64,000 bases of DNA from Spirochaetota bacterium (GTDB lineage Bacteria; Spirochaetota; UBA4802; UBA5550): NCBI GenBank assembly GCA_017999915.1, contig JAGNKX010000004.1:186001-250000 (forward strand), in the 5' to 3' direction. The notes under the pieces were generated by a model that was not told the DNA's origin, did no database searches, and was given only the letters and a program-made list of their open reading frames with translations. Shown here in pieces: positions 24,102 through 30,603 of this stretch (positions are counted from its first letter, which is position 1; the number at the start of each line of letters is the position of its first letter). The translations under genes were made by a program, and so were the position numbers.

Positions 24102-24718
24102 ATGGAGACGAAGGAACAGATGCTTCAGGCCCTCAAGGCCGAGGTCGCGGGTTGCTCACGCTGCAGGCTTGCCGGAACCAGGACCATGACCGTGTTCGGT
24201 GAAGGCAATCCTGACGCTGAGGTCATGTTCATCGGCGAGGGCCCCGGGAAGCAGGAGGACCTTACCGGCCGTCCCTTTGTCGGCCGCGCCGGTGAGCTAC
24301 TGACAAGGATCATCGAGCTGGGCATGGGCGTTCCCCGCTCTTCAGTCTTCATCGCCAACCTGGTCAAGTGCAGGCCCACGGTGGACATGAAATTCGAACG
24401 AGACAGGCCCCCCGACAATGATGAATTGACCGCCTGTTCCCACTTTTTCGGCGCCAGGTGGAGATCATTCAGCCCCGCGCGATCGTGGCCCTGGGCAGTC
24501 CCTCGGCAAAATTTCTTCTCGACACGTCGACCGGCATCACCAAACTGAGGGGGAACTGGGGCTCTTTCCATGGCATCCCCGTGATGCCGACGTACCATCC
24601 CAGCTATCTACTCAGGAACGGCGGTGAAGCCAGTCCCCTGCGCAGGGACGTGTGGGACGATATCAAGAAGGTGCTGGGCAAACTCGGGAAACCGATACCC
24701 AAAAAACGAAAGGAGTGA
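24102..24718 (+). pseudogene. Family 4 uracil-DNA glycosylase, interrupted by a frameshift
   Basis: The N-terminal part (frame from 24102) contains [33 protein letters not shown] and [15 protein letters not shown]. The C-terminal part is in the +1 frame from about 24455 ([34 protein letters not shown]). The two halves join naturally as ...CSHFFGA/QVEIIQP... if one base is restored around 24447-24455. Family 4 enzymes remove uracil from DNA and carry a 4Fe-4S cluster. All other motifs look intact, so this is either a recent inactivating mutation or a sequencing/assembly error. Confidence 0.75.
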
Positions 24719-28009: not shown

Positions 28010-29089
28010 TTACTCCTTGGCTTGATATTCTACAACCATTGAGCTGATCTTTTTCGAAGCCACCGCCTCATAAAATTCTTCACCAAGATTTTTCGCGCCC
28101 TGAACGGCCCTGCGCCAGTAGTCCAGGCGTTCCGAGTCCTTTCCCCTGAATTTCATGAAATCATTCCGGTCAGGTATCTTTCCATAGGGGAGGGCTCCTA
28201 TAAAATCCTTTGACGGGCAGACTATAAGGACATTTTCCATATTCTTTTTATGGGCCCGCCGCCACGGCAGGTGCTTGTCAAGCCATCCGGGAATGATGGA
28301 ATCCGTATAATGGGGGTAGAGTACTATATGATCCGGGTCCGAATCAAAGGGAATATCAATGTGATAATCTATCATGCCCCCGTCACGGTATGTCCCGACT
28401 GGAACGCCGGGGATATCCGTCACTCCTTTCATAACCAATGGGATTGAACCGGATGCCATGACGGCTTGCTTTATATTATCTTCTGCAAGGTATGCGTGAA
28501 GGATGGGGAAGCCGCCCATATTATAAAACGGGGGTACATCTCTGCCATCGCAGAACAAGGTCCTTTCAAAATGCAGGCCCATGGATCTTCGTGATAGAAG
28601 ATTGGTAAGGGTCGCCAGGGCCATTCCGGCTGCGATGGCCGCCCTGGATTCAACTGCCAGGATATGCCGTGCCCTGACGGCAAGAATATTCAGGCGGTAA
28701 TAGGGATGTTGCAATACTTCAAGCTTCTTTTTTTCAGGGAAATATGCGTCCAGGATAACCTGGCTTACGGCCGATACCTCTTCTGCGGTCGGTGCCGACG
28801 AATATGACTGATTCAGGTAGGCCGTTTCAAAGGCATCGATTGCGGCTGCAGGATTGCTCTGTGCCAGGGCGGCAAAACGCCATGTTCCGATGGAGGAGCC
28901 CAGCAGGTATAGAGGCTTCTTCCTGTGCTTGAAAATTACCGCCAGGCTGCGGTCAATACCCCCCAGTATCAGCCACTTGGGCCCTCCTGCCGCTCCGGCC
29001 ATTACGCTGACCCGGTCCGGGGTTAATCCTTCATCGCGTATTATACGGAGTGCCCTTGATCCGGCTATAAACGACAGTGGTTGGGTCAT
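28010..29089 (-). CDS. Patatin-like phospholipase
   Basis: A 359-residue protein. It has an oxyanion-type glycine region (GAAGGPKW), the nucleophile elbow GSSIGTW and the catalytic aspartate in DGGMIDY, i.e. the Ser-Asp dyad of the patatin family. No signal peptide is seen. It is predicted to hydrolyse acyl chains from phospholipids. Its N-terminal half matches the family best. Confidence 0.82.
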   Translation of the reverse strand: MTQPLSFIAGSRALRIIRDEGLTPDRVSVMAGAAGGPKWLILGGIDRSLAVIFKHRKKPLYLLGSSIGTWRFAALAQSNPAAAIDAFETAYLNQSYSSAPTAEEVSAVSQVILDAYFPEKKKLEVLQHPYYRLNILAVRARHILAVESRAAIAAGMALATLTNLLSRRSMGLHFERTLFCDGRDVPPFYNMGGFPILHAYLAEDNIKQAVMASGSIPLVMKGVTDIPGVPVGTYRDGGMIDYHIDIPFDSDPDHIVLYPHYTDSIIPGWLDKHLPWRRAHKKNMENVLIVCPSKDFIGALPYGKIPDRNDFMKFRGKDSERLDYWRRAVQGAKNLGEEFYEAVASKKISSMVVEYQAKE

Positions 29090-29370
29090 GGAATCACCTG
29101 CTTTCTTTTTTTTTATGCCGGGTAAAACCTGATTATTTACACTATGGATTAATTGTAAGTCAATAATAAAATGCGCCGGGGCGCCATCAAATACCCCGCA
29201 GCTTGCTATGGGATTTTAGCGAGCTGCGATTAAAGCGCACCAGTCGTCACGGGTCCTTATTGTTGATGGAAGAACCACTTTCAATTGACATTTTTTCGTG
29301 AGATTATAGGATTGCTACATTATAATACGGCGCTTGATCATTGACAAGCAATTGCGCAGATAGGACAGAT

Positions 29371-30603
29371 ATGCTGAAATTATACAATACGATGTCACGA
29401 TCTCTGGAAGAATTCAAGCCGCGCAATAAAGGTAATGTTAAGATATTTACCTGTGGTCCATCGATATACCGTCGTCCACATATCGGCAATTACCGCACCT
29501 TCATGTTCGAAGACATCCTCGTGCGGTATCTTCAGTTCAAAGACTATCGCGTGGACCGGGCGATACCCCTTACCGATATCGAGGATAAGACGATCATGGA
29601 GGCCATAAAGAAAAAAAAGAAGATCGATGACCTGACCGGCGACATTGAAAGGATCTTTCTTTCCGAAATGAGGTCGCTCCATATGCTTTTGCCGAAAAAG
29701 GCGCAGAGGGCCTCCCTTTGCGTGGATTGCGCCGGCAGGCTGATAAAGAAATTGATGGAAACCGGCCATGCCTACCGCCATGGCGCGGATATTTTCTTCG
29801 ATCCCATGAAATTCAAGGGATTCGGGAAGCTCTATCGGCTTGACCTGAAGCGCTGGCCGAAGAAAAAGATCCGCTTCAAGCGCGACACCTATAACGGCAA
29901 CCGCTGGAACCTGGGCGATTTTATCCTCTGGCACGGATATCGCGACGGCGATATCAAGTGCTGGGACACGGCCGTTGGAAAGGGACGGCCGTCATGGAAT
30001 ATCCAGGACCCGTCGGTGATAATCCAGCACCTTGGCGGCTCGATCGACATCAACTGCGGCGGCATTGATAATATTTTCCGCCATCACGATTACAACATCG
30101 CCATTGTCGAGTCCTATACAGGCACCACCTTCGCGAACTACTATCTTCACGGCGCCCACCTCATCGTGGACGGCAAGGCAATGTCGAAGAGCAGGGGTAA
30201 TATCATATACCCCGAGGATATTTACCGTCACGGTTGCAGAAACCGCGATCTGAGGTTTTTTCTCTTCTATACCCATTATAGAAAAAAACTAAATTTCACA
30301 GCCGCCCGTTTCAAGGATTCGTGCGCTAAAATGGAATCGTTCCGGACCCTTGCCCTGAAGCTGTGCAGGCCTCCCCGGTCCAATAATCCCGGGGATCGCC
30401 GCGTAAAAGAGCTTATTGGCGATATTCAGCGAGTCTTTGAAAATAATATGGACAATGACCTCGGCATAGGCGCGGCCTTCGATGGCATATACGAAATCCT
30501 TGAATCCCTGGACAGGATTAGAAACCAGATGTCGAAAAAAGACGCATCCGACCTTGAAAAAACCCTCAAGAGGATTGATGCCGTCATGGCAGTGTTATTT
30601 TAA
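29371..30603 (+). CDS. Cysteinyl-tRNA synthetase-like paralogue with altered zinc site
   Basis: A 410-residue protein with the class I synthetase catalytic core: TCGPSIYRRPHIGN (residues 27-40; Cys28 and HIGN retained), DFILWH, and AMSKSRGN (270-277) in place of KMSKS. The CysRS zinc ligands are incomplete. The WHIEC motif reads WNIQD (Cys to Asp213), and the HHENE motif reads HHDYN (final Glu to Asn242). The C-terminal part is shorter than the ~460 residues of typical CysRS. It may ligate a different amino acid or act outside translation (inference). ATG is used as start, not the in-frame TTG at 29341. Confidence 0.75.
   Translation: MLKLYNTMSRSLEEFKPRNKGNVKIFTCGPSIYRRPHIGNYRTFMFEDILVRYLQFKDYRVDRAIPLTDIEDKTIMEAIKKKKKIDDLTGDIERIFLSEMRSLHMLLPKKAQRASLCVDCAGRLIKKLMETGHAYRHGADIFFDPMKFKGFGKLYRLDLKRWPKKKIRFKRDTYNGNRWNLGDFILWHGYRDGDIKCWDTAVGKGRPSWNIQDPSVIIQHLGGSIDINCGGIDNIFRHHDYNIAIVESYTGTTFANYYLHGAHLIVDGKAMSKSRGNIIYPEDIYRHGCRNRDLRFFLFYTHYRKKLNFTAARFKDSCAKMESFRTLALKLCRPPRSNNPGDRRVKELIGDIQRVFENNMDNDLGIGAAFDGIYEILESLDRIRNQMSKKDASDLEKTLKRIDAVMAVLF

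Follow-up and report, generated by a model that had tools for sequence, protein, structure and literature searches.

In the 64,000-nucleotide stretch of Spirochaetota DNA analyzed here (the window), the gene at positions 29371 to 30603 encodes a paralog of cysteinyl-tRNA synthetase (CysRS). On our reading it belongs to a distinct, ancient CysRS-derived subfamily without prior description; no publication on it was found in the literature searched, in which subscription journals were thinly covered. CysRS is the textbook case of an enzyme that chooses its amino acid through a zinc-thiolate contact. In this conserved two-domain family that contact is rewritten and the other catalytic machinery is retained, which makes the family a natural experiment on synthetase specificity. 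The explanation that we favor is an active ligase that forms an adenylate, recognizes its amino acid in an altered way, and acts on RNA or another polyanion, a statement that as a whole we hold at a probability of roughly 0.45; we judge its narrower core, an active adenylating ligase whose side-chain pocket has changed, to be quite probable. The family probably carries out a previously undescribed aminoacylation reaction. CysRS paralogs as such are already known, and it is the zinc-motif variant that is new here. The features of the gene are the following.

29371–30603, + strand: CysRS-like paralog, 410 amino acids, ATG start (reading frame, PF01406 match, ortholog alignment)
29452–29454, + strand: codon of Cys28, a zinc ligand still present, in a CGPS motif, invariant in 21 of 21 (ortholog alignment)
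29479–29490, + strand: HIGN (residues 37–40), class I ATP-binding motif (reading frame, ortholog alignment)
29854–29910, + strand: new connective-region motif, residues 162–180, WP...RF..DTY.G..WN (ortholog alignment, comparison with canonical CysRS)
29995–30009, + strand: WNIQD, residues 209–213, replacing WHIEC, with Asp213 for the second Cys ligand (alignment)
30079–30096, + strand: RHHDYN, residues 237–242, replacing PHHENE, with ligand His238 retained (alignment)
30181–30192, + strand: MSKS, second class I ATP-binding motif (reading frame, ortholog alignment)

The reading frame is unbroken. A TTG at 29341, 10 codons upstream of the ATG, is a possible alternative start; in the alignment the orthologs start at the ATG of 29371. 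With 226.5 bits against the Pfam model of the CysRS catalytic domain (PF01406, tRNA-synt_1e; cut-off 27, E-value 6e-67), the product falls within the CysRS superfamily. It scores below the curated cut-offs of TIGR00435, the canonical CysRS equivalog (277.7 bits; cut-off 340), and of TIGR03447, the MshC model (161.6 bits; cut-off 485.1). Because the CysRS models are matched only below the curated cut-off, the label “second cysteine-tRNA ligase” would be misleading for proteins of this family. The residues named in a preliminary description of this DNA (Cys28, HIGN, Asp213 in WNIQD, Asn242 in HHDYN, and AMSKS) are all correct, although AMSKS, which it had listed as a departure from KMSKS, is nothing special, since the residue ahead of MSK differs among family members.

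The same description took the gene for a paralog and pointed to a possible absence of any other cysS as evidence to the contrary. A canonical cysS is present on another contig (G000:C2:165640-166875; 476 amino acids), with WHIEC, HHENE, and a full C-terminus, so that the genome has both the paralog and a complete CysRS whose zinc site is unaltered. A normal CysRS also occurs in all carriers that were checked and are sufficiently complete. In two small archaeal assemblies only the paralog is seen, and in two fragmented spirochete genomes the normal CysRS gene is in pieces.

Nor is the variant a one-off: a conserved family of 21 sequences with WNxQD is found in relatives. Identity to the window protein is 61–82% in the same genus and about 50–56% elsewhere in the order, and further orthologs occur in RBG_16_67_19 and in two more lineages of Spirochaetota (G374, G377). 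The clade was found in 15 genomes of Spirochaetota and 11 of Bathyarchaeia. A phylum search from a Bathyarchaeota carrier is positive in 11 of 398 genomes, and the Spirochaetota sample gives 15 of 393 at cut-off; G050 (37% identity), one of the 15 Spirochaetota matches, has canonical motifs and is rejected as a member. The spread is patchy, with 11 of the 46 genomes of the order positive by a strict DNA pattern that misses at least one true member. In the tree, the 21 paralogs form one clade (support 100/100) on a stem of 1.52 changes per site. G006 pairs with G374 although they come from different families, and these sequences suggest a transfer between lineages. Viral, plasmid, and phage copies are rejected: viral-contig matches that were read for the motif have WHxEC, and plasmid and phage matches reach at most about 32% identity among the matches listed. 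The matches in Neomarinimicrobiota and Betaproteobacteria are canonical proteins that have WHIEC and all of the domains.

Fixed differences were sought between the 21 paralogs and 27 canonical CysRSs, with an E. coli CysRS reference that matches the PDB 1li5 alignment in the regions used. The E. coli residues aligned to the zinc site are Cys28, Cys209, His234, and Glu238; in the window paralog Cys28 and His234 are retained, Cys209 is replaced by Asp213, and Glu238 is replaced by Asn242. WHxEC has become WNxQD and PHHEN has become RHHDY in all 21 paralogs. Asn210, Gln212, and Asp213 are found in 21 of 21 paralogs and 0 of 27 canonical proteins; Arg237, Asp240, and Tyr241 are likewise fixed. The position equivalent to Glu238 holds Asn in 12 paralogs, Thr in eight, and Ile in one, and the canonical four-ligand site (Cys, Cys, His, Glu) is therefore absent, with Asp213 and Asn, Thr, or Ile242 at two of its positions. 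Because Asp213 is invariant in 21 orthologs, down to 44% identity, it cannot be put down to chance or assembly error. Ten positions are fixed differently between the two groups, and the two zinc motifs, with 11 of the 410 positions, account for six of these (hypergeometric p-value 1.5e-8, for windows defined by the motifs and taken as given). His224 (E. coli numbering) is lost as well. Cys28, Thr68, Trp205, Asp229, and His234 (E. coli numbering) are retained, together with HIG and MSK.

In CysRS, Thr68, Trp205, and Asp229 sit along the wall of the amino-acid site and make backbone contacts. All three are retained, so the substrate probably still belongs to the alpha-amino acids. The fixed changes cluster in the amino-acid pocket, which is most naturally read as a change in how the side chain is recognized. 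This fits the earlier proposal that the protein may activate another amino acid. The accompanying claim, that two zinc ligands have been lost, needs a caveat: both replacements are real, but loss of the metal does not follow, since Asp is able to bind zinc and MshC functions although it lacks the Glu. Judging from sequence, Cys28, Asp213, and His238 could between them make up a metal site with three ligands, so cysteine is still a possible substrate, which counts against the reading that we favor. The gene might, on the other hand, be a CysRS copy that is decaying or serves only in regulation, without ligase activity, as the replacement of two canonical ligand residues would allow. However, the ATP motifs and the pocket are invariant across bacteria and archaea, dN/dS within the genus is about 0.05–0.08 (with dS close to saturation), and the fold is confidently predicted (AF2 model, pLDDT 90.8); we consider an inactive copy highly improbable.

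The whole AF2 model matches canonical CysRS in the E. coli CysRS-tRNA structure (PDB 1u0b; Z 45.6, and 45–46 over residues 1–395), with the correspondence ending at residue 395 of 461. Because the match stops at about this residue, the anticodon-binding domain is absent, and its conserved columns are missing in 21 of 21 paralogs. The helical bundle is retained. The lack of the domain fits a role outside decoding, which is the part of the earlier suggestion of a role outside translation, like that of MshC, that finds support; the analogy with MshC itself is partial. MshC, the cysteine:GlcN-Ins ligase of mycothiol synthesis (TIGR03447; PDB 3c8z, 8hfm), shares with the paralog its length (about 410 amino acids) and domain plan, namely the CysRS catalytic core and helical bundle without an anticodon domain, and has lost the Glu ligand position as well (HHEYS); against MshC the model gives Z 40.9, slightly below CysRS. 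An MshC-like ligase would couple cysteine, or a different amino acid, to the amine of a small molecule, e.g., in a low-molecular-weight thiol or other metabolite, and the patchy distribution agrees with this. Yet MshC retains WHVEC and the PHHE context where the paralog has WNxQD, is acidic (pI 5.0), and branches elsewhere in the tree, though on a branch too long for firm placement. MshA exceeds the curated family cut-off in 0 of 20 carriers (one control genome is over it), and the bacteria have no conserved pathway neighbors. An MshC-like role is thus a possibility that we hold to be doubtful. The comparison also narrows what is peculiar to the paralog: because the fourth ligand is lost in MshC too, only the Cys-to-Asp change and its neighbors are distinctive, and because MshC keeps WHVEC and loses the Glu only, the paralog lies further from cysteine recognition than MshC. 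This is the main reason for thinking that the amino acid, or the mode of holding cysteine, is different.

The connective region differs from that of CysRS as well. Trp162, Pro163, Phe169, Thr173, Gly176, Trp179, and Asn180 are near-invariant in the paralogs and absent or rare in CysRS, and the motif contains two one-residue insertions relative to CysRS (Pro163, Gly176). The paralogs are basic (pI 8.2–10.2 in 20 of 21, the exception being G377 with pI 5.8), in contrast to the carriers' canonical CysRS (pI 5.0–6.7). A basic surface suits RNA and also other polyanions, and the charge makes an acceptor of this kind more likely than a neutral sugar as with MshC. It fits acidic carrier proteins, nucleotide-like molecules, and membranes too, and this, together with the acidic G377, counts against the reading that we favor. 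Aminoacylation of an acidic carrier protein or other protein has a precedent in the SerRS-like aa:CP ligases (class II), which aminoacylate carrier proteins (PMC9437257), and would agree with the basic surface and the missing anticodon domain; across lineages, however, there is no common neighbor gene that could be the carrier, and we think such a role very unlikely.

In the reading that we favor, an altered ligase acting on RNA or another polyanion, the paralog would, like CysRS, bind ATP together with an alpha-amino acid and form an aminoacyl-adenylate, as HIG, MSK, Thr68, Trp205, and Asp229 suggest. The side-chain site would have been rebuilt (in E. coli numbering, Cys209 to Asp, His206 to Asn, Glu208 to Gln, Pro233 to Arg, and Glu236-Asn237 to Asp-Tyr, with His224 and Glu238 lost) and would most likely accept an amino acid other than cysteine, or bind through a different or absent metal. 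Lacking an anticodon-binding domain, the enzyme would select its acceptor through its altered connective region and its basic surface; the charge points to another polyanion or to RNA, be it the acceptor arm of a tRNA or, in the manner of GluQ-RS, one of its bases. GluQ-RS (YadB) is a functional analogy only: it is a truncated class I synthetase that lacks the anticodon domain and modifies RNA, but it derives from GluRS and not from CysRS. The coexisting canonical CysRS, the 100/100 clade, the clustering in the zinc motifs, the invariant catalytic motifs, the AF2 fold, and the basic pI all count for this reading. A more specific version, in which a non-cysteine amino acid is attached to tRNA or other RNA without anticodon reading, is rather unlikely; if true, it would mean a new RNA aminoacylation or tRNA-base modification common to spirochetes and Bathyarchaeia.

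Loss of the anticodon domain together with a changed connective region has a precedent in CysRS* of Desulfobacterales, a second, tRNA-charging CysRS (PMC7609411) whose selC*-CysRS* system is described in reviews (PMC9437257; PMC7609411); this precedent also counts for the reading that we favor. The paralog might likewise still activate cysteine and put it on a particular tRNA without anticodon reading, as proposed for CysRS*/selC*. Compared by description (PMC7609411), the two have in common a second CysRS gene, the missing domain, and the altered connective region, carriers retain a normal CysRS, and cysteine binding by a Cys-Asp-His zinc site is chemically possible. However, the cysteine site itself is rewritten in the paralog, and CysRS* is encoded with selC* and selB* whereas the paralog is adjacent to neither selB nor selC. 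All 51 tRNA matches in the genome were examined; they include a single ordinary tRNA-Cys, with no second tRNA-Cys and no extra isoacceptor, and among the genomes compared no odd tRNA is common to carriers. The genome does have tRNA-Sec (selC), beside a selA-like gene on a contig other than that of the paralog, but tRNA-Sec does not track the paralog (13 of 14 carriers versus 21 of 26 non-carriers). Since it is about equally common in non-carriers, we dropped the selC/CysRS* link, and we regard a CysRS*-like role as distinctly unlikely. That no cognate RNA was found and that selC is as common in non-carriers count against the favored reading as well.

Two other tRNA-like elements lie outside the window. 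One is a 101-nt RNA (G000:C4:288254-288354, − strand; locus L069:355-455; RF00005, 55.5 bits) that looks intron-like, its anticodon stem having 9 bp and its loop about 31 nt; it has no ARAGORN call and ends shortly ahead of a ribosome-binding-site-like GGAGG and a GTG. Because it is found in this genome only among about 38 relatives, it is rejected as a general partner. The other is a degenerate 66-nt tRNA remnant (G000:C3:6098-6163, − strand; locus L068:1099-1164) that is flanked by two recombinase-like ORFs and may be a copy of an attachment site.

The neighborhood, to which the preliminary description had also looked, is syntenic within the genus but forms no conserved operon across lineages. 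Within the genus, a patatin-like gene lies upstream of the paralog and ABC-transporter genes lie downstream. The patatin-like protein (28010–29089, − strand) is divergent, just below the Pfam cut-off, and adjoins the paralog in all genus members examined. In archaeal carriers, a Bcp-type peroxiredoxin gene ends 9–18 bp upstream of the paralog in six of ten loci examined. This pair would suit a redox thiol made by an MshC-like ligase. Nothing else points to a redox context, and the arrangement is explained equally well as synteny inherited from a common ancestor. In several of the loci L154–L161 and related Bathyarchaeia loci, a small gene with a cytochrome-b5 domain faces the paralog. Elsewhere in the window, a uracil-DNA-glycosylase-like gene (24102–24718, + strand) is apparently split into overlapping frames of 148 and 86 amino acids where relatives have one 208 amino acid frame, reflecting a frameshift or a sequencing error.
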